Shown here piece after piece: positions 3,461 through 13,964 of a stretch of 13,964 bases of DNA. This DNA is from Deltaproteobacteria bacterium RBG_13_61_14 (lineage in GTDB: Bacteria > RBG-13-61-14). The notes below the pieces were generated by a model. It did no database searches. It was not told the origin of the DNA and was given only the letters and a program-made list of their open reading frames with translations. The stretch spans positions 17,310 to 31,273 of the forward strand of contig MGQK01000075.1 in assembly GCA_001797815.1 (NCBI GenBank). The letters are read 5' to 3'. Made by a program: the position numbers and the translations under genes. Positions within the stretch are counted from its first letter, which is position 1. Every line of letters starts with the position of its first letter.

Positions 3461-4285
3461 TCAACCAGATCCAAGTAAACCGTTGTAATGGCCGAGGTAA
3501 TTAGCGATCTCCGGCAAAGTCTTGCCTTCTTCAAGCATCAGCTCAGCCATGGTATGGCGGAACTGGTGAAGCCCGGCCTGGCCGGACAAGCCGGCCTTGT
3601 TGAGGAGTTTCTTGATCTGCTGACCGACCGTGGCATGCTGGACCCGCTCGCTCTTCCAGGTGACGAACATGGCCGGCTCCCCGGCCGCGGCGAGTTGTTC
3701 GCGCCAAGAGATCCAGCGGAGCATCAGACCCTGGCAGTCCTCGGAAAGCTTGATCGAGCGCGGCCTTCCGCTCCTGGTCTCCATCCAGAGGATTCCAGAA
3801 GCAGGATCGAACTGGGCGCGGTCGAGGTTGAGCAGGGAGCCGACGCGGAGGCCGTGAGTGAGCACGAGCATGACCATGACCTTGAGGCGGAAGGCGCCCA
3901 GGTCGTGGATTACTTTTCTGGTCTTGGTGTTCTCTTCGAGGACTTCGAGAATGCGCATGAGCTGGTCGCGGTGGAAGCCGAGATGGGGTTGCAGGACGGC
4001 GCGGGGCCGGGGGATGCGGGAAAGCGGGGACTTGGCGAGCTTGCCTTCCTCATAGAGCCAGAGGCAGAACTTATGGAGGACTGACCAGGCCCGGACACGG
4101 GCGACTGGTCGGAGAGAGTTGAGGTAGGAGGCGCAGTTGACCGAAGAGAGAGGATCATCGGCGAGCAAGTAGGCATGGCGGATGAGACCTAGAACATGCT
4201 GGCGGTGGATGGCATTGGTGCGAGGAAAGAAACCCTGGCAGGATAAGAACTCGGACAAGGATTTTTCAAGGTCGGGTGAAGTCAT
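3461..4285 (-). pseudogene. tyrosine recombinase (phage-type integrase), broken before catalytic Tyr
   Basis: A site-specific recombinase of the XerC/phage integrase family, expected to cut and rejoin att sites. The N-terminal SAM-like core-binding domain covers about residues 1-100. The catalytic domain follows, with Arg147 (THGLRVGSLL), a candidate Lys179 (SIKL), His240-x-x-Arg243 (HQFRHT) and His266 (YLGH). After His266 the frame ends NGLLGSG, without the expected catalytic tyrosine. In the adjacent frame the DNA reads TTVYLDLVES at once, which looks like the missing active-site segment. His266 and that Tyr are separated by 10 bases rather than the 24 or so that are usual, so a deletion of about 14 bases fits. 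The start ATG at 4285 has an AAGG ribosome-binding site. The gene lies next to tRNA-Glu, a typical integration target. Confidence 0.7.
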
Positions 4286-4429: not shown

Positions 4430-4507
4430 TGGCGTCCCCAACGGGATTTGAACCCGTGTTGCCGGATTGAAAGCCCGGTGTCCTGGGCCAGGCTAGACGA
4501 TGGGGAC
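4430..4507 (-). tRNA. tRNA-Glu (UUC)
   Basis: Read on the minus strand, the 78-nt gene begins GTCCCCATCGTCTAG and ends TGGGGACGCCA. The acceptor stem pairs GTCCCCA with TGGGGAC. The anticodon loop is CTTTCAA, giving UUC. The T arm is ACGGG-TTCAAAT-CCCGT. The CCA end is encoded. It lies between the degenerate recombinase and the histone-like protein gene and is the likely integration target of the element. I see no clear promoter directly upstream. A GC-rich hairpin (CCGCTCG/CGAGCGG) lies at about 4529-4545. Confidence 0.95.
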
Positions 4508-4647: not shown

Positions 4648-4968
4648 TTATTTCGCCGCTTTTTGCCGCACTCTGCGCCGCATCTGCTGGTAGTGATTGG
4701 CGCACAGGCGCTTGGCGTAAACCTTGTTCGAGCAGCCCCGCTTCGCGCACTTCTTGAATTTCTTACTCGGCTTCCGGCCCCGCCTCTTGCCGGCCACCTT
4801 CACTCCCTTGGGCCGCCCCGGCCGGCCCCGCCGACCCCGCTTCGGCTTGCGGCCCGGCTTGCCTCGCTTCTTGCCGAGCTTCTTGACCTGCTTCTTGAGA
4901 TCCTTCAAATCCGAAGCGATACTGTTGAGTAGTTTTTCCAGTCCCCCGAGCGCACTTCCTTTTGGCAT
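4648..4968 (-). CDS. basic histone-like DNA-binding protein with zinc motif, 106 aa
   Basis: Likely a nucleoid-associated protein. Residues 1-30 form a predicted helix suitable for oligomerisation (LEKLLNSIASDLKDLKKQVK). Residues 31-72 are a Lys/Arg/Gly/Pro-rich linker with AT-hook-like cores (GRRGRPGRP at 45-53 and GRKP). Residues 74-92 hold Cys74, Cys79, Cys89 and His92, a probable zinc site (CAKRGCSNKVYAKRLCANHY). The layout, an oligomerising helix and basic tail, recalls H1-like or H-NS-type proteins, but I do not recognise a named family. The ATG follows AGGAGGGCAGGA. A strong promoter lies upstream and a terminator downstream, so it is a monocistronic and probably highly expressed gene. 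Confidence 0.8.
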   Translation of the reverse strand: MPKGSALGGLEKLLNSIASDLKDLKKQVKKLGKKRGKPGRKPKRGRRGRPGRPKGVKVAGKRRGRKPSKKFKKCAKRGCSNKVYAKRLCANHYQQMRRRVRQKAAK

Positions 4969-5504: not shown

Positions 5505-6251
5505 ATGTTTCGGCGCAGCCTGTTCGTGATCGCCATCCTGGTCGCCAGCCTGGCCTGGCCCCAGTGCCAATGGCCTGGAAAAACCGACCAGCCGCTCCCT
5601 TTCTTTAAAAAGGAGACCTCGAAGGAACCGCAAAAAATTGCGCTCCCCGGCATGGTCCCCGAGGGAGCGGACCTCTCCGCCGCTATCGCCGATTGCGCGG
5701 GCCCGGTCCAGCTCAAGGAATTGCGGCCGTCCCCCATCGGCGGGGCCGCTAACCGCTCGAGCGCGGCCGTGACCGTCTCCGGCAGCTTCCAGGGGCTGGC
5801 GGATTTTATCGCCTGCTTCGCCCAGGGCGAGGTGAAGTGGGAACTGGGCGACCTGAAAATCTGGCGCGGGCCGCCCAAGTTTTTCGACTACCGGATGGAG
5901 GTCAATCTCATCGCCTACCAATTCGTCATGGTCCCGGGCCCCGAGCTCCCGGACCGGGCCGCGGCGGAGAAGTGGTTCCAGGGACTTCCCGCCCGGGTGC
6001 GGAAGGAAGTCGGCCTGCTCAGCGATCTCTATGTTGCCACCGAGCCGAGCATCGAGCTGCGCCAGATCGCCCTGAGCAAGGGGCAAGGCAGCCTGTCGGG
6101 CCGGGCGCTGAGCTACGAGGATATTTCCGCCTTGATCGAGGAGTTGAAGGGCAAAGGGCTGGTCCAGAATCCGCGGGTGGAAACTATCCGGCCCAGCAAG
6201 TCGCGGATGGTGGAGAAGAAGCAGGAGTTCGAACTCCGGTTCGCGTGGTAA
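5505..6251 (+). CDS. exported PilO/PilN-like protein, 248 aa
   Basis: The N-terminus (MFRRSLFVIAILVASLAWPQ) is a signal peptide or membrane anchor. The Cys at 21 has no proper lipobox. Two segments look like the C-terminal ferredoxin-like modules of type IV pilus assembly proteins: about residues 88-140 (AVTVSGSFQGLADFIACF, then a strand pair), PilO-like, and about 195-247 (LSGRALSYEDISALIEELK, then VETIRPSK), PilN-like. If so, it is a compact protein combining both modules without the usual cytoplasmic partner region. No other pilus genes are nearby. It could also belong to a general secretion or unknown periplasmic family. It has a strong promoter without a leader and a terminator after the stop. 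Confidence 0.6.
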   Translation: MFRRSLFVIAILVASLAWPQCQWPGKTDQPLPFFKKETSKEPQKIALPGMVPEGADLSAAIADCAGPVQLKELRPSPIGGAANRSSAAVTVSGSFQGLADFIACFAQGEVKWELGDLKIWRGPPKFFDYRMEVNLIAYQFVMVPGPELPDRAAAEKWFQGLPARVRKEVGLLSDLYVATEPSIELRQIALSKGQGSLSGRALSYEDISALIEELKGKGLVQNPRVETIRPSKSRMVEKKQEFELRFAW

Positions 6252-6310: not shown

Positions 6311-6387
6311 TGGCGGGGCCGACGGGACTTGAACCCGCGCCCTCTGGCTTGACAGGCCAGCGTTATAACCAACTTAACTACGGCCCC
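6311..6387 (-). tRNA. tRNA-Asp (GUC)
   Basis: Read on the minus strand, the 77-nt gene begins GGGGCCGTAGTTAAG and ends CGGCCCCGCCA. The acceptor stem is GGGGCCG/CGGCCCC. The anticodon loop is CTGTCAA, giving GUC. The T arm is GCGGG-TTCAAGT-CCCGT. CCA is encoded. It lies 51 nt downstream of tRNA-Val on the same strand, separated from it by a terminator-like hairpin. Confidence 0.95.
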
Positions 6388-6438: not shown

Positions 6439-6514
6439 TGGTGGGCGGGACAGGGCTTGAACCTGCGACCTTCGGCTTGTAAGGCCGACGCTCTCCCAGC
6501 TGAGCTACCCGCCC
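6439..6514 (-). tRNA. tRNA-Val (UAC)
   Basis: Read on the minus strand, the 76-nt gene begins GGGCGGGTAGCTCAGCTGG and ends CCCGCCCACCA. The anticodon loop is CTTACAA, giving UAC. The T arm is GCAGG-TTCAAGC-CCTGT. CCA is encoded. It is the first gene of the Val-Asp pair and has its own promoter. Confidence 0.95.
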
Positions 6515-6610: not shown

Positions 6611-9600
6611 TCAAAACAGGTCGAGCTGAGGATCGGGCGGCTGATCGTGGCCGGCGCGGCGGGGGAGCTTGGCTTCGGCCAGCAGTTCCTGTTCAATCGC
6701 GCGCAGGAAGGGGGAAGGGGTCTGGTCCTGGAGCTTGCCTTGCCAGCGGCGCCGGGCCGCGTGGCTCAAGAAAAGCAGGAGCCGGGCGCGGGTCATGCCC
6801 ACGTAGAACAATCTCCGCTCTTCCTCCCGTTCCGGAGCCGAGGCCAGACTCCGCCGGTGCGGGAGGATTCCGTCCTCGCAACCCACCAGGAATACCGCCG
6901 GAAACTCGAGGCCTTTGGAGGAGTGCAGCGTCATCAGGGTCACCCGGTCCGCCCGCGGCTCCCGGCTGTCCACCGCCGCCCGTAGCGCCTGGTGCTCGAG
7001 GAACCCGCAGAGGTCGCGGCCAAAAGGCTCGGCTTCGGCCAGCCACTTGGGCCGGAGCCGGTCGCGGACCTCGGGGTCAGACACCACTCCGCTCCCGCTT
7101 AAAAGTTCCGCGATCAGGTCGGCCACCTCCCGCTCGCCTATGCATTTTTGCAATAAAAGCAAGTCCTCGCCGGATCGGCCCCGGCCCCAGAGCGGGTGCA
7201 GGGCTCCCGTCTGCGGGCGGGCGATGAGCTTGAGCGCGGCCAGGAGCCGGCCGGCGCTTTCCGCTTCCGGGTCGGGCCCGATCTTCTGGAAGGGGATGCC
7301 GGAGCGGGCGAAGGCTTCGAGGAGCGGGAGACTGAGGGAATCCTGCCGGTAAAGGACCGCGAAGTCGGCAAAGCTCCAGGCGTGCTCTTCGGAGCGGGCA
7401 TCCACCCGGCCGCTGTCCAGGGAAAAGAAGCCGGTGCCGCCTACCAGTTTTTCAATGGTGTGGACCACGAACTCGGCCTCGGCCCGGTCGCTTCTGGCCG
7501 CGAGCACCGAGATCCTCGCGTCTCCGGCCTCGCCGGCCGCGGTGATCGCCACCTCGCCGCCGGGCGCGAGCAGTTGCGCCGAGGCGCGCTGGATCACCGG
7601 GGTGGAGCGGTAATTGCGGCGGAGCTCGATCACCCGGGCGCCGGGGTAATCCTGTTCAAAGCGGAGGAAGTAAACCGGGTCCGCGCCGCGAAAGCCGTAG
7701 ATGGCCTGGTCCGGGTCGCCGATCACGAACAGGTTGGCCCCGGCCGGGGCCAGGAGCCGCACCAGTTGGCATTGCGCCGCGTTAATGTCCTGGTATTCGT
7801 CCACCAAAATCCACTGGAAGCGCTCGCGCCAGCGCTTCAGCGCCATGGCATCCTCGCGCAAGCGGCAAACCGGCAGGGCCAGGAGGTCGTCGAAGTCCAC
7901 CGCGCCGGCCTCAGCCAGCGCGGCTTGATAGGCGGCAAAGGTCTCTCGGAACTCAGGCTCGACCTCCTCCGGCCGGGCCAGGTTCTGCTTGGCCAGGGAG
8001 ATTTTTTCCACCAGGCGGCCGCGGGAACGGCCGGAAATCTTCTGGACCAGGAACTCGCGCTCGTCCTCATCCAACACGATCAAGTCCGGGGGCAAACCCA
8101 AGGCGCAGGCTTCCTCCCGCAGGATCATCAACCCGAGCGAGTGAAACGTGCGGATGGTCAGGCCCTGGAACCGGGCCGGGTCGGCCAGGAGCGCTTGCAA
8201 CCTTCCCGCCATCTCGTCCCGGGCCGCGTTGGTGAAAGTCACGGCCAGGATTTTCTTCGGGCCCACTCCGCGCCGGCCGATCAGGTGAGCAATGCGATGG
8301 GTCAGGGTCAAGGTCTTGCCGGTGCCGGGGCCGGCCTTGATCAGGAGCGGGCCTTCGCCGTGCTCGACCGCGGCTTGTTGCAGAGCGTTCAACTCCGGGA
8401 CTGATGCGCCGACTTCGGACGCCGGCTCCTCGCCGAACCGCGGAGCAGCCGAGGTCCGCGGCTTTTTCCGGGCCGGGGCCTTGGCCGGGGCCGGCCTTTT
8501 CTTCTCCGTGGGTGCGGCGGGTCCGGAGTCTTCTGGGGGTTGAAACCAGCCGGCTTTTTTGAGCAGGCGGTCGCGCTCGCCTTCTTGGAACAGCCGGACA
8601 GTGCCGTATTCGCCGTCGTAGCCGGCCGCGACCTGCACCTCGCCGGCGCGCATGCGGCGGAGCGACTCGGCGAGCAGCGGCGGGCCGGCCGGCTCGATCT
8701 CTGCCAGGTCCGCGCTTTCCAAAATGAATAGCTCCGGCCCGAACCGGGAGAGCAGCTTCTCGTATTCCGCGGCCACGCCCTTGGTTGCCGGCCCCGCGTC
8801 CAGCACTTCGCCCAGCACCTCGACCAGGGGGACCAAGCTGCGGAAAGGATGGCGCCGGGCCGGACCCTCGCCTTCCGGCCGGTCGGCCAGTTCCTCCACC
8901 CGGTGCATCACCCCGACCGTGACCGGCTTGCCGCATTCCGGGCAGCGGCCCTTGAGCTTTCGCGTCTGGGCCGGGTTCAAGCGGGCGTTGCATTTGCGGT
9001 GGCCGTCGAAATGGTATTTCCCCTCTTCCGGGAAAAACTCGACCGTGCCCAGGTAATGCGCGCCGGTGCGGAGCGCCTCGCGGAGGGCCGGGTAGGAAAG
9101 CTCGGTGTCAAAGACGTTTGCTTCCCGGCCGAGCTTGGCCGGCGAGTGCGCGTCGGAGTTGGAGACCAGGGTCAGCCGGTCGAGCATGGAGAGCCGCCAG
9201 TTCATGGGCGGGTCCGAGCTTAAGCCGGTCTCGACCGCGAAGATTTGCGGGGCCAGGTCGCCGTAGGCTTCTTCCAGCGAGTCGAAGCCGGACTTGGAGC
9301 CCAGAAGCGAGAACCAGGGCGTCCAGATGTGGGCGGGGATGAAGACCGCCTGCTCCGAGGCGTGGAGCGTCATCTCGAAAAGGTCGCGCGAGTCGAGGCC
9401 GAGAATGGGCCGGCCGTCCGCCGAGAGGTTCCCGATGCGGGCGAGCGCCGCGTTCAGGCGGGCCGCGGATTCCAGGTCCGGCATCAAGATCAGGTTGTGG
9501 ACCTTGCGCACCTTCTCGTGGCGCTTGTAGATGTTGCTGATCTCCACCGAGAGGATGAAACGGACCTCGCCCGGGCAGGAGCGGGGGACTCCCTGAGAGC

Positions 9601-9814
9601 GCCCCGGCCCGGGCCGCAGGCGGAAGAGACCCGGCTCCGCCGGCTCCAGGGATTCCTTGATTTCCGCGAACCACTTGGGGTGGGTGAAGTCGCCGGTGCC
9701 GACCACGGTCACACCCTTGCGCCGGGCGGATCGGTCCAGGTTGACGAGGTTGCAGTCGCGGCTGGTGGCGCGGGAGAGGTAGGAATGGACGTGGAAGTCG
9801 CTCACGAACCGCAT
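6611..9814 (-). CDS. endonuclease Q-UvrD helicase fusion with sliding-clamp motif, 1067 aa
   Basis: Predicted DNA repair protein. Residues 1-425 match endonuclease Q, a PHP-fold enzyme that nicks DNA 5' of deaminated bases. Visible are DFHVHS (6-11), DFTHPKWF (42-49), Glu91, His106, PAHIWTPWFS (160-169), SNSDAHS (218-224) and a zinc site with Cys275, Cys291 and Cys294. A Lys/Pro/Ala-rich linker covers about 430-470. Residues 475-1050 are a superfamily 1 helicase: Walker A GPGTGKT (495-501), DEYQD (672-676), GDPDQAIYGFRG (699-710), NYRST (734-738), TLHSSKGLEFPAVF (962-975) and FYVGMTRAR (1003-1011). The helicase part is shorter than UvrD. The last residues, QLDLF (1063-1067), match the bacterial sliding-clamp-binding consensus. 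The start is the ATG at 9814, because homology begins there; the frame stays open further upstream only across lipA. Divergent from lipA. Confidence 0.9.
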   Translation of the reverse strand: MRFVSDFHVHSYLSRATSRDCNLVNLDRSARRKGVTVVGTGDFTHPKWFAEIKESLEPAEPGLFRLRPGPGRSQGVPRSCPGEVRFILSVEISNIYKRHEKVRKVHNLILMPDLESAARLNAALARIGNLSADGRPILGLDSRDLFEMTLHASEQAVFIPAHIWTPWFSLLGSKSGFDSLEEAYGDLAPQIFAVETGLSSDPPMNWRLSMLDRLTLVSNSDAHSPAKLGREANVFDTELSYPALREALRTGAHYLGTVEFFPEEGKYHFDGHRKCNARLNPAQTRKLKGRCPECGKPVTVGVMHRVEELADRPEGEGPARRHPFRSLVPLVEVLGEVLDAGPATKGVAAEYEKLLSRFGPELFILESADLAEIEPAGPPLLAESLRRMRAGEVQVAAGYDGEYGTVRLFQEGERDRLLKKAGWFQPPEDSGPAAPTEKKRPAPAKAPARKKPRTSAAPRFGEEPASEVGASVPELNALQQAAVEHGEGPLLIKAGPGTGKTLTLTHRIAHLIGRRGVGPKKILAVTFTNAARDEMAGRLQALLADPARFQGLTIRTFHSLGLMILREEACALGLPPDLIVLDEDEREFLVQKISGRSRGRLVEKISLAKQNLARPEEVEPEFRETFAAYQAALAEAGAVDFDDLLALPVCRLREDAMALKRWRERFQWILVDEYQDINAAQCQLVRLLAPAGANLFVIGDPDQAIYGFRGADPVYFLRFEQDYPGARVIELRRNYRSTPVIQRASAQLLAPGGEVAITAAGEAGDARISVLAARSDRAEAEFVVHTIEKLVGGTGFFSLDSGRVDARSEEHAWSFADFAVLYRQDSLSLPLLEAFARSGIPFQKIGPDPEAESAGRLLAALKLIARPQTGALHPLWGRGRSGEDLLLLQKCIGEREVADLIAELLSGSGVVSDPEVRDRLRPKWLAEAEPFGRDLCGFLEHQALRAAVDSREPRADRVTLMTLHSSKGLEFPAVFLVGCEDGILPHRRSLASAPEREEERRLFYVGMTRARLLLFLSHAARRRWQGKLQDQTPSPFLRAIEQELLAEAKLPRRAGHDQPPDPQLDLF

Positions 9815-9925: not shown

Positions 9926-10867
9926 ATGCAATCCAGGCTTGTTCTCCGGAAGCCCCGGCACCTGCAAGCGATCCGAGTTTTGCCCCAGGCCAGGCGGGCC
10001 GTGAAAATCCGGCTCCGCCAGGCCCGGCTGCATACGGTGTGCGAGTCGGCCCGGTGCCCGAACCTGGGGGAGTGTTTTTCCCGGCCCACGGCGGCGTTCC
10101 TGATCCTGGGCAACCGCTGCACCCGCGCCTGCGGCTTCTGCGCTGTGGAGCACGGCTCGCCCGGACCGGCGGACCCGGCCGAGCCGGAAGCCGTGGCCGA
10201 GGCGGCTCGCGCGCTGGGCCTGCGCTACGTGGTCATTACCTCCGTGACCCGGGATGACCTGGCCGACGGCGGCGCCGGCCAGTTCGCGGCCGCGATCCAG
10301 GCGGTGCGCCGGCTGCTGCCGGCAGCCAAGGTGGAGGTCTTGACCCCCGACTTCCGGGGCGAGGCGCGGGCGATCGCGGTGGTGGCCGAGGCCGGGCCGG
10401 ATGTGTTCAACCACAACCTGGAGACGGTGCCGGTCCTGTATCCGCGCGTCCGGCCGCAGGCGGATTATGGGCGCTCGCTTCAGTTGTTGCGGACGGTGAA
10501 AGCGAATGCGCCCGGGCTAGTGACCAAGTCCGGCCTGATGCTGGGGTTGGGCGAAAGCCCGGCCGAGGTGGAAGCGGTGCTGGAGGACGTGCTGGGCGCC
10601 GGGGTGGAAGTCCTGACCCTGGGCCAGTACCTGGCGCCTTCGCGCCGGCACTTGCCGGTGGCGCGCTATCTTGAGCCGGAAGAGTTCGAGGAATGGGCCG
10701 AGCGGGGAAGGGCCAAGGGCTTCCGGCGGGTGTTTGCCGGACCGCTGGTGCGGAGCAGTTATCACGCGGAAGAAGTGTGGGAGACAGCTATGAAAGAAGC
10801 ACCGGTTGAAAACCGGTGGCACACAAAGGGGGCGCCGGTTTCAAACCGGCGGCACACGAGAGGATGA
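9926..10867 (+). CDS. lipA: lipoyl synthase, 313 aa
   Basis: Radical SAM enzyme that inserts two sulfur atoms into octanoyl groups on lipoyl domains of 2-oxoacid dehydrogenases or glycine cleavage H protein. The auxiliary cluster ligands are Cys39, Cys44 and Cys50 ([12 protein letters not shown]). The radical SAM cluster ligands are Cys65, Cys69 and Cys72 (CTRACGFC). The conserved C-terminal RSSY motif is at 276-279. Residues 292-313 ([20 protein letters not shown]...) are not part of the family: they are encoded by two palindromic repeats, and they carry the frame into the aminotransferase start, where TGA and ATG overlap. The start at 9926 has no ribosome-binding site, but a promoter lies immediately upstream. 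No lipB is visible in the window. Confidence 0.95.
10799..10863 (+). repeat. two CCGGTT-nnn-AACCGG palindromic repeats in the lipA 3' end
   Basis: Copy 2 (10799-10830) has stem CACCGGTT/AACCGGTG and copy 3 (10831-10863) has stem GCCGGTTT/AAACCGGC. Each is followed by GGCACAC plus a purine-rich tail. They match copy 1 at 602-630. They encode the odd tail of LipA in one frame and [10 protein letters not shown] in another. The second copy's tail (GAGAGG) supplies the sequence just before the aminotransferase ATG. Confidence 0.75.
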
Positions 10868-12039
10868 CGCAATTTCAACGGATGAACCGGCTTCCGCCCT
10901 ATGTTTTCAACCAGGTGGTGGAAGCGATGAAGGAAGCCCGGCGCCAGGGGGAGGACATCATTGACTTAGGGATGGGCAACCCGGACCTGCCCACGCCCCA
11001 GATCATTGTGGACAAGGTCAAGGAAGCCCTTGACAACCCCCGGAACCACCGCTACAGCGCCTCCCGGGGCATCGCCGGGCTGCGCAAGGCGATCTGCGAC
11101 TGGTATCAGCGCAACTACGAGGTGGACCTGGACCCGAATACCGAGGCTATCGCCACCATCGGGGCCAAGGAGGGGCTCTCGCATTTGGTCCTGGCCACGG
11201 TGGACTCTGGGGACGTGGTATTCGTGCCTAATCCGACTTACCCGATCCACGCCTATTCGGTGGTGATCGCGGGCGGCGACTTGCGCACGATCCCGCTGAC
11301 CGGGGAGGACGACTTCTTTGCCGGGCTTTTGGCGGCGACCAAGACCACCTGGCCGCTGCCCAAGATGATGATCCTGTCCTTCCCGCACAACCCCACCACC
11401 CGGGTGGTGGAGCTGGACTTTTTCCAGAAGGTGGTGGCTTTTGCCAAGGAGCACAAGATCTGGATCGTCCACGACCTGGCCTACGCCGATCTCTGCTTTG
11501 ACGGCTTTCGCGCGCCCAGCTTCCTGGAGGTGCCGGGCGCCAAGGAGGTGGGCGTGGAGTTGTACTCCATGAGCAAGGGTTATTCCATGCCCGGCTGGCG
11601 CGTCGGGTTTTGCGTGGGCAACCGCCATCTGGTCGCGGCCCTGGCCCGGATCAAGAGCTACCTGGACTACGGCATCTTCCAGCCCATCCAGATCGCCAGC
11701 ACCGTCGCGCTCAACGAGTGCGATGACGTGCCGCCGCAGGTTTGCGAGGTTTACCGCCGCCGGCGGGACGTCTTGGTGGACGGGCTGGTTAAGCTGGGCT
11801 GGCCCTTGAAGAAACCCAAGGCTACCATGTTTGTCTGGGCCAAGATCCCGGAGCCGTTTGCCCAGATGAACTCGGTGGACTTCAGCTTGAGACTTCTGGC
11901 CGAAGCCAAGGTGGCGGCCAGCCCGGGCGTGGGCTTCGGCGGGGTGGGCGAGGGCTACGTCCGCTTCGCCCTGGTGGAGAACGAGCACCGGATCAAGCAG
12001 GCGCTGCGCGGGATCCGGAAGATGTTTCGGAAGGGGTAA
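10864..12039 (+). CDS. PLP-dependent aminotransferase, AlaC-like, 391 aa
   Basis: Class I/II fold-type I aminotransferase. The N-terminus ([15 protein letters not shown], then [16 protein letters not shown]) matches AlaC-like enzymes that transfer amino groups between glutamate and pyruvate, and also resembles DapL-type enzymes. PLP-site residues visible are Asn176 (PHNPTT), Asp204 and Tyr207 (HDLAYAD), the Schiff-base Lys238 ([11 protein letters not shown]) and Arg246. The ATG at 10864 overlaps the lipA stop (ATGA) and fits the usual family start. The upstream GAGAGG touches the ATG and so is poorly spaced. It stands before hom and thrC, an order I remember from other bacteria such as Geobacter, suggesting a role in the aspartate-alanine branch. 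Substrate remains inferred. Confidence 0.85.
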
Positions 12040-12046
12040 GGAGAGG

Positions 12047-12126
12047 TATGTAGTATGTAGTATGTAGTATGTAGAGGATGGGAGATCGGGGTGCCCCCCT
12101 ACATACGACATACAACATACGACATG
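12047..12126. repeat. heptamer tandem repeat with inverted partner
   Basis: Four exact TATGTAG units (12047-12074) are followed, after 24 bp, by a 28-nt arm (12099-12126) that is complementary except at four positions, three of them in the same phase of the heptamer (units read TATGTCG or TATGTTG on the minus strand). The pair fills the gap between the aminotransferase stop and the hom start and could form a long hairpin. Confidence 0.8.
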
Positions 12127-12133
12127 CTAAACA

Positions 12134-13441
12134 ATGAAGACAATCGCTATCGGCTTACTGGGTTACGGCACCATCGGCCAGGGCGTGATCAAGCTCTTGC
12201 AGAAGAACGCCCGCCTGATCGAGGACCGGCTGGGGGCCAGGCTCGAGCTGGCCGGAGTGGCGGACCCGGACCTGACCCGGCCCCGCCAGGTCAAGGTGGC
12301 GAAGCGGCTCTTGACCCGTGACCCCTTTCGGCTGGTCCGGGACCCGAAAATCCCGCTGATCGTGGAGCTGGTCGGCGATTGGCCGGGCGTCAAGGAGCTG
12401 ATCCTGGCGGCGCTCCGGGCCAAGAAGTCGGTGGTGACCGCCAACAAGGCGCTGTTGGCCAAGCACGGGGCCGAGCTGTTCGCCGAGGCGGAAAAGCAGG
12501 GGGTGGACATTTACTACGAGGCCAGCGTGGCCGGGGGAGTGCCCATCATCCGGGTGCTGCGCGAGGGCCTGATCGCCAACCGCATCCAGGCGGTCTACGG
12601 CATCGTCAACGGCACCTGCAATTACCTGCTTACCGAGATGAGCCAGGGCCGCGGCGATTTCCAGACCATCCTCCAGCAAGCCCAGGCCAAGGGCTATGCC
12701 GAGGCGAACCCGGCGTCGGACGTGGAGGGCCACGACGCCTCGCACAAGCTTGCCCTCTTGATCCGCCTGGGCTTCGGCGTGCCCATCCGTTTGAGCCAGA
12801 TTTACCGGGAGGGCATCACCGCGCTCGCGCCCGCGGACTTCGAGGCCGCGGCCGAGTTCGGCTTTGCCATCAAGCTCCTGGCCATTGCCAAGCTCAAGGA
12901 CGGCCGGGTGGAGGCGCGGGTGCATCCGACCCTGATCCCGGCCGGCTCGCTGCTCGCCGACGTCGGCGGGGTGTTCAACGCGGTTTACGTGGTCGGCGAT
13001 TTCGTGGGCCCGACCCTTTACTACGGCCGGGGCGCGGGCATGGACCCGACCGCCTCCGCCGTGGTCTCGGACCTGATGGAGCTGGCCCGCAACTACTTGC
13101 GGGGCGAGCCGGGCCGGCGCCTGCCCTCGGGCTCGTTCCAGGACTCGCGGCCGCAAAAGCTCCGGGTGATGCCCCAGCCCGAGGTCTTGACCCAGTATTA
13201 TTTGCGGATGCAGGTGCGGGACCAGCCGGGCGTGCTCTCGAAGATCTCCGGCCAGTTGGCCAAGGAGAACATCAGCATTTCCGCCGTGGTCCAGCGCGGC
13301 CGGGGCGGCAAGACGGCGCCGATCGTGATGCTGACCCACACCGCTTCCGAGGCGGCGATGGAGAAGGCGCTGAAGCGGCTGAACCGGCTCGCGGTGGTGC
13401 AGAAGCCGATCCAGCGCATCCGAATCGAGACGGCATTGTAA
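12134..13441 (+). CDS. hom: homoserine dehydrogenase with ACT domain, 435 aa
   Basis: Reduces aspartate semialdehyde to homoserine with NAD(P)H, the branch point to threonine and methionine. The Rossmann motif GYGTIG is at 10-15. The catalytic region has Lys105 (TANKALLAK), the substrate loop EASVAGGVPII (129-139), GIVNGTCNYLL (156-166), Asp201 and Lys205 (DASHKLALL). Residues about 352-430 form an ACT domain (YYLRMQVRDQPGVLSKISGQ), usually the site of threonine feedback inhibition. Length and order match typical monofunctional bacterial enzymes. No Shine-Dalgarno sequence precedes the ATG at 12134; the heptamer hairpin lies directly upstream. The next gene is threonine synthase, so the threonine pathway is clustered here. 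Confidence 0.95.
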   Translation: MKTIAIGLLGYGTIGQGVIKLLQKNARLIEDRLGARLELAGVADPDLTRPRQVKVAKRLLTRDPFRLVRDPKIPLIVELVGDWPGVKELILAALRAKKSVVTANKALLAKHGAELFAEAEKQGVDIYYEASVAGGVPIIRVLREGLIANRIQAVYGIVNGTCNYLLTEMSQGRGDFQTILQQAQAKGYAEANPASDVEGHDASHKLALLIRLGFGVPIRLSQIYREGITALAPADFEAAAEFGFAIKLLAIAKLKDGRVEARVHPTLIPAGSLLADVGGVFNAVYVVGDFVGPTLYYGRGAGMDPTASAVVSDLMELARNYLRGEPGRRLPSGSFQDSRPQKLRVMPQPEVLTQYYLRMQVRDQPGVLSKISGQLAKENISISAVVQRGRGGKTAPIVMLTHTASEAAMEKALKRLNRLAVVQKPIQRIRIETAL

Positions 13442-13498
13442 GAGAAGAAGAGGATCCGCAGAGAGACTCCGCCGAAGCGCTACGTCCTCCGCGAAGGC

Positions 13499-13521
13499 GG
13501 ATTACGCAGATTTCGCAGATT
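13499..13521 (+). repeat. CGCAGATT-containing interspersed repeat
   Basis: Two CGCAGATT octamers lie 9 bases apart (start to start) after a GGATTA start. This resembles a short interspersed sequence I remember from many metagenome-derived genomes. It lies in the hom-thrC gap. A GC-rich hairpin (CCGCGAC/GTCGCGG, 13540-13560) follows, without a T-tract. Confidence 0.45.
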
Positions 13522-13575
13522 GAAGAAAAAAAGCTGTGGCCGCGACTGGGGCGGTCGCGGGTGAAGGAATCTCAC

Positions 13576-13614
13576 ATGGTTGAAGATAGGAAAGCATTTC
13601 GAGGCAGGATTTGA
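13576..13614 (+). CDS. possible 12-codon leader ORF before thrC
   Basis: ATG at 13576 follows AAGGA at a good distance and encodes [12 protein letters not shown]. It contains no run of threonine or isoleucine codons, so classical attenuation is not supported. It may be chance. Confidence 0.2.
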
Positions 13615-13651
13615 GCTTTTGGGAAGCCGATCAACCCCAAAGGAATCAGAG

Positions 13652-13964
13652 ATGAGTTATCGGGGCGTGGTGGACCGCTACTGGGACTTGCTGCCGCTGA
13701 AAAAGCGGGAGTGCATCGTCACCCTGCTCGAGGGCGACACCCCTTTGATCCCGTCCCGCCGGCTGGCGGAGAAGGTCTGCCCCGGGGTGGAGTTGTTCTT
13801 CAAGTTCGAGGGTCTGAACCCGACCGGCTCGTTCAAGGACCGGGGCATGACCGTGGCGGTGAGCAAGGCGCTTGAAGACGGGAGCCAGGCGGTGATCTGT
13901 GCCAGCACCGGCAACACCTCGGCCTCGGCCGCGGCCTATGCGGCCCGGGCCGGCTTGAAGGCTT
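13652..13964 (+). CDS. thrC: threonine synthase, N-terminal part (runs off window)
   Basis: PLP enzyme (fold type II) that converts O-phosphohomoserine to threonine. The first 104 residues are visible: [19 protein letters not shown], then [17 protein letters not shown] with the PLP Lys62, then the phosphate-binding [19 protein letters not shown] (83-101). Early residues are as expected for the family. The ATG at 13652 follows AAAGGA at good spacing. It lies downstream of hom on the same strand, separated by about 210 bp that hold a repeat and a hairpin, so it may have its own regulation. The C-terminus lies beyond the window. Confidence 0.95.

Follow-up and report, generated by a model that had tools for sequence, protein, structure and literature searches.

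Endonuclease Q (EndoQ) has been described in archaea, where PfuEndoQ and TkoEndoQ occur without a helicase, and as standalone proteins in bacteria, among them those of Bacillus pumilus and B. subtilis and the solitary proteins of Desulfobacterota, in which a helicase is neither joined nor adjacent. By means of a PIP box at its C-terminus, archaeal EndoQ binds the sliding clamp PCNA, which stimulates it; the presence of clamp motifs in bacterial EndoQs has already been noted (PMC4858679). For the steps after the nick, the discoverers of EndoQ proposed either displacement by a polymerase, or the action of EndoV together with a helicase that was not named (PMC4357722). Here we describe a gene of Deltaproteobacteria bacterium RBG_13_61_14 (contig MGQK01000075.1), located on the minus strand at positions 6611-9814 of the 13,964-nucleotide stretch of DNA that was analysed (the window), which encodes in a single chain of 1067 residues an EndoQ domain, a UvrD/PcrA-type helicase and a terminal motif of the type that binds the bacterial β sliding clamp.

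The window protein shares with the archaeal enzymes the entire EndoQ domain, its fold, the catalytic Glu/His/His residues, the residue corresponding to D193 and the pocket residues corresponding to G169 and S171, together with a C-terminal contact to the sliding clamp, which is a PIP box in archaea and is predicted here; it differs from them in that its clamp motif is of the bacterial QLxLF type and follows a helicase. The domain and a C-terminal β-clamp motif are likewise shared with the standalone bacterial EndoQs, although these lack the helicase and the solitary Desulfobacterota proteins form a separate group in the EndoQ tree. Compared with UvrD, PcrA and Rep, the helicase half has the same fold and the same ATPase and helicase motifs, but scores below the cut-offs for these proteins and is flanked by an N-terminal EndoQ and a C-terminal clamp motif. 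The Gabija system (GajA plus GajB) also pairs a nuclease with a UvrD-like helicase, whereas here the nuclease is an EndoQ unrelated to GajA, both activities lie on one chain with a clamp tail, and there is no recurring defence context. EndoQ itself, its occurrence in bacteria and its clamp motif are already published; what is new is the clamp tail on helicase fusions and on partner helicases. The initial annotation of the window, which proposed a fusion of EndoQ to a UvrD-type helicase, knew of no experimental work on such proteins, and in agreement with this no paper describing the fusion was found in the open-access literature, outside which most subscription papers lie; automatic database annotations of it probably exist.

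The fusion gene extends from an ATG at 9814 to a stop codon at 6613-6611, and the limits 6611-9814 given in the initial annotation, which did not state the strand, are exact. Read as an open reading frame, it remains open 5' of this ATG as far as a GTG at 10414. The start was nevertheless set at 9814, because the extension overlaps a gene on the plus strand (9926-10867, encoding a lipoyl-synthase-like radical-SAM protein) and because homologues, which align from residue 1, also begin at this ATG. A strong ribosome-binding site is not visible before it. All coordinates given below for parts of the fusion protein refer to the minus strand.

The EndoQ domain (residues 1-423; 8546-9814) comprises a PHP catalytic domain, a zinc ribbon and a C-terminal lobe. 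Residues 5-411 align with residues 5-385 of PfuEndoQ (5zb8, 7k30), that is, over nearly its entire length (E 4e-48). An AlphaFold model was computed without templates from an alignment of 50 fusion sequences (mean pLDDT confidence 84), and its residues 1-423 superpose on PfuEndoQ 5zb8 with Z 40.7 over 388 residues (root-mean-square deviation 3.5), so that the PHP part does have the fold of EndoQ. The residues known to matter in PfuEndoQ are retained. Alanine mutants of E76, H84 and H139 of the archaeal enzyme are inactive, and G169 and S171 are residues of the base-discriminating pocket that exclude T and A (PMC8307549); the corresponding E91, H106 and H162, as well as G197 and S199, are invariant in 61/61 fused homologues. 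H162 lies in the sequence PAHIWTPWFS (residues 160-169; 9308-9337), while D221 in SNSDAHS (residues 218-224; 9143-9163) corresponds to D193, a position occupied by N in the 7k31 entry, and is kept in 60 of the 61; H8 is kept in 59. The zinc ribbon (residues 272-294; 8933-9001) has the putative ligands H272, C275, C291 and C294, giving HxxC...CxxC rather than the CxxC...CxxC of PfuEndoQ, with H272 in place of C249; the three cysteines, the last two in the sequence CPEC, are invariant in the same set, and H272 is present in all but one. These hallmarks, and the superfamily 1A (SF1A) motifs treated below, had been picked out in the initial annotation and are all found. Judged by the catalytic and pocket residues and by the modelled fold, the fused domain is predicted to be catalytically intact. 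Its score against TIGR00375, a hypothetical equivalog, is 172 bits where the curated cut-off is 326.6, and judged by that score the window protein is not assignable to this equivalog; all matching Desulfobacterota genomes likewise fall below the cut-off.

A linker (residues 424-471; 8402-8545) predicted to be disordered, with pLDDT below 50 at residues 423-471, leads to the SF1A helicase (residues 472-1050; 6665-8401). Residues 474-1049 match PcrA, UvrD and Rep (E 1e-80), the UvrD N- and C-terminal domains are recognised at residues 475-1019 (PF00580, E 9e-70; PF13361, E 2e-35), and residues 470-1050 of the model superpose on UvrD, PcrA and Rep with Z 36-39 and about 34-41% identity in the structure alignments. 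Walker A (AGPGTGKT, residues 494-501; 8312-8335) and Walker B (DEYQD, residues 672-676; 7787-7801) are conserved among aligned homologues, and the remaining SF1A ATPase and helicase motifs are present and conserved in the homologue alignments as well. The scores against the equivalog models are far below the respective cut-offs, at 400 against 911 bits for PcrA, 363 against 951 for Rep and 308 against 1144 for UvrD. The genome encodes a separate PcrA-like helicase on another contig (C17), which ends in ARLEPLP, without a clamp motif; because of this protein and of the low equivalog scores, the fused motor is a diverged, additional helicase.

When 84,980 species genomes were scanned, at least 588 relatives were confirmed, and the counts of architecture that follow are taken from the best 80. 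In 70 of these, helicase homology is in frame with EndoQ; a contig end truncates seven of the 70, and two appear to be frameshifted. Chance can be excluded, because the two-domain chain recurs so widely among the nearest homologues and because the template-free model gives both folds. An artificial fusion produced by a frameshift or an assembly error is ruled out, since the frame has no interruption and many genomes carry the same architecture. Fused forms occur in about 13 phyla (Desulfobacterota, Myxococcota, Planctomycetota, Actinomycetota, Acidobacteriota, Gemmatimonadota, Chloroflexota, Verrucomicrobiota, Spirochaetota, Cloacimonadota, Pseudomonadota, KSB1 and Binatota), and cultured carriers of the domain pairing include Desulfonema magnum, Saccharopolyspora hirsuta, Tamaricihabitans halophyticus and a Polyangium sp. 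When genomes were drawn evenly within phyla, with the seed genome counted in every draw and a frame of at least about 870 residues as proxy for a fusion, fusion-length frames were present in about 41/148 Desulfobacterota, 6/95 Myxococcota, 7/99 Planctomycetota and 3/100 Actinomycetota. An EndoQ match was found in 103 of the 148 Desulfobacterota, so that the earlier statement that the enzyme is known in a few bacteria was too modest. The fusion thus looks like a recurrent bacterial enzyme rather than a one-off.

The same two activities are also found as separate genes, a version that the initial annotation overlooked. At seven loci in Omnitrophota EndoQ is a gene of its own, encoding about 430 residues, and helicase homology begins 24-94 nucleotides after it at five of them and 0.9 and 4.7 kb away at the other two; at one Desulfobacterota locus (L111) a helicase gene follows EndoQ directly. 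Fusion, taken with operon pairing, gives independent evidence that EndoQ and the helicase act jointly. In an EndoQ tree that did not include the Bacillus proteins, fused and helicase-paired forms make up one clade (support 96/99), with 19 solitary EndoQs falling outside it. The split forms of Omnitrophota cluster with fused KSB1 proteins inside a largely fused clade, a placement that fits fission and repeated fusion alike. In the helicase tree, which is midpoint-rooted and has weak deep support, the L111 helicase falls among the PcrA/UvrD/Rep controls, and for this reason the L111 pair may be a separate association. Three EndoQs of the helicase-linked clade (L012, L038 and L047) have no helicase homology that could be found nearby; L012 keeps the sequence QKTLF at the old junction, which suggests that its helicase part has been lost.

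The window protein ends in QLDLF (residues 1063-1067; 6614-6628), a further feature missed in the initial annotation, which matches the β-clamp-binding consensus QLxLF, itself mostly C-terminal in position (PMC4549789). The strict motif is present within the last 12 residues in 54/61 fusions, against a shuffle mean of 0.08, and elsewhere in the fused proteins at about 0.1 per protein; Q1063 and L1066 are invariant across the 50 aligned fusions. Such peptides are not confined to fused chains. The split EndoQs of Omnitrophota end in QLTLF, QLSLF or similar, and C-terminal peptides of this kind are carried by the split helicases of L065, L067, L079 and L085 and by the helicase of L111; the split helicase of L064 ends in QLEFF, while the helicases of L086 and L084 run off their contigs. 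A Q..LF-like end is also found in nearly all of 20 EndoQs taken from fusion-free frames of Desulfobacterota. In 34/62 fusions a second QxxLF, also overlooked previously and absent from the window protein, lies at the junction of EndoQ and linker, and it looks like a remnant of EndoQ's own C-terminal tail. The genome itself encodes dnaN.

No fixed gene partner across phyla was found in the neighbourhoods of homologues. At 13 loci, in Desulfobacterales and relatives, dnaN is found close to the fusion gene; several of these loci have gyrB on the far side of dnaN, and at some an RdgC-like gene sits between the fusion gene and dnaN. The RdgC-like protein, of about 204 residues (PF04381, E 4e-7), is encoded upstream of the fusion at L018, L027, L033, L044, L069 and others, and beside its gene some loci encode a protein of about 175 residues with no recognised relationship, also between the fusion and dnaN; the two may represent a split RdgC. 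A few loci have an SLT transglycosylase as neighbour.

It had been suggested that carriers of the fusion might lack uracil glycosylases or EndoV. The first part does not hold, since a uracil glycosylase (UDG) is present in the genome under study and in 45/47 carrier genomes, and the fusion does not replace uracil-glycosylase repair but would add to it. The second part holds for the genome itself and for 32/47 carriers, in which EndoV is absent; in Desulfobacterota the association is not significant, either between genomes with a fusion and those without EndoQ (14/41 versus 23/47, Fisher p 0.20) or between fused and standalone EndoQ (Fisher p 0.31), phylogeny not being controlled in either comparison. 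Compensation for loss of EndoV is thus true of this genome and not significant across Desulfobacterota, and repair of hypoxanthine as the chief duty of the enzyme is possible. Several carriers contain weak partial matches to EndoV (E 1e-7 to 1e-12), distinct from canonical EndoV, which are possibly a diverged EndoV-like family.

The best explanation of these results is that the protein is a clamp-tethered enzyme that nicks and unwinds DNA in the repair of deaminated bases or apurinic/apyrimidinic (AP) sites, and we consider this reading probable, if by no means certain. From the domains, residues, folds, linkage and motif set out above we infer clamp docking, nicking activity and the coupling of the two halves. 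The QLDLF tail would dock the protein onto the β sliding clamp; the EndoQ domain would then flip out a deaminated base (uracil, hypoxanthine or xanthine), or engage an AP site, and cleave the phosphodiester 5' of the lesion, leaving a 3'-OH. This action of the domain is suggested by homology to EndoQ, all the residues known to matter being retained. Motors of the UvrD/PcrA/Rep type travel 3' to 5' along the strand that they track; to displace the damaged strand 3' of the nick the motor must therefore track the intact strand, in the direction of polymerase extension. The helicase would thus load at the nick and travel along the intact template in the 3' to 5' sense, away from the 3'-OH. Starting at the 5' end of the damaged strand, it would strip that strand off and so free the template immediately in front of a polymerase that extends the 3'-OH behind it. 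Flap removal and ligation would be left to the ordinary enzymes. The sequence of recognition, 5' nicking and unwinding put forward in the initial annotation is accordingly kept as the best inference. Some points weigh against it: a strand-displacing PolA could process a nick 5' of a lesion without any helicase; uracil, UDG being near-universal in carriers, may not be the main substrate; the motor, given its equivalog scores, is diverged; and residues 163-176 are among the low-confidence stretches of the modelled catalytic lobe.

The near-universal UDG also favours a different reading, in which the fusion is a nickase for AP sites or a broad range of lesions acting downstream of glycosylases, EndoQ cutting 5' of the AP site and the helicase opening a long-patch gap. 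AP sites are indeed substrates of EndoQ, and PfuEndoQ is poorer on hypoxanthine and uracil than on a synthetic abasic site (PMC11354406); on the other hand, the pocket residues for uracil and hypoxanthine, G169 and S171, are invariant in the fusions, and we regard this alternative as unlikely. The clamp tail and the dnaN neighbourhood could also reflect a surveillance translocase coupled to replication, in which the motor acts before the nick and carries EndoQ over DNA that is single-stranded or freshly unwound at the fork until a deaminated base is met and cut. EndoQ is active on single-stranded DNA too (PMC8307549), and the long disordered linker permits either order of events, but cleavage of the template ahead of the fork would risk breaks; we consider such a role improbable.

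An anti-phage function resembling Gabija, directed for example at phage DNA containing uracil or hypoxanthine, seems very unlikely. A possible antiviral role of bacterial EndoQ has been mentioned (PMC8307549), and the helicase half matches the PADLOC models for GajB with 264 bits; yet it scores higher on the PcrA model (404 bits), and the EndoQ half matches none of the PADLOC models. For 101 proteins encoded in the neighbourhood of homologues, the first 25 of 85 families do not include GajA, and each listed defence family matches at most four of these proteins. An EndoQ match is absent from 50,697 phage records and the fusion is absent from plasmid records, while the placement near dnaN and gyrB in some lineages and the conserved clamp tail suggest a housekeeping function. 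Defence of the Gabija type is therefore not favoured by the PADLOC, phage and plasmid, or neighbour evidence.

Divergent from the fusion gene on the plus strand of the window (9926-13963) lie the gene for the lipoyl-synthase-like radical-SAM protein, an aminotransferase and a homoserine dehydrogenase, followed by the start of an apparent threonine synthase. Just downstream of the fusion gene are tRNA-Val (6439-6514) and tRNA-Asp (6311-6387), both on the minus strand, and beyond them an isolated PilN-like fimbrial assembly protein is encoded on the plus strand (5505-6251; E 1e-7). A minus-strand gene at 4648-4968 specifies a histone H1-like protein of 106 residues, very rich in Lys, Arg, Gly and Pro and without a Pfam match, whose C-terminal segment CAKRGCSNKVYAKRLCANHY could bind zinc. 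A tRNA-Glu lies at 4430-4507 on the minus strand. The left flank, which is gene-poor and lower in G+C, contains a tyrosine recombinase (3461-4285, minus strand; Phage_integrase, E 8e-20), perhaps the sign of an integrated element or of what is left of one.

The unwinding proposed here for the clamp-tethered enzyme resembles the 'helicase removal' step drawn by the discoverers of EndoQ, in which the enzyme was left unnamed (PMC4357722). It is tempting to suggest, though we do so tentatively and with somewhat less than even confidence, that EndoQ and a dedicated helicase of the UvrD family, fused or encoded in one operon and both bearing clamp motifs, constitute a widespread and undescribed route of bacterial repair, and that fusions with two motifs could engage the two protomers of a single clamp ring at once, so that nickase and helicase flank the lesion in one complex. 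The joining of EndoQ to a specific helicase and a clamp tail names candidate partners for the steps downstream of the EndoQ nick, and the pathway becomes testable using one protein plus DnaN.

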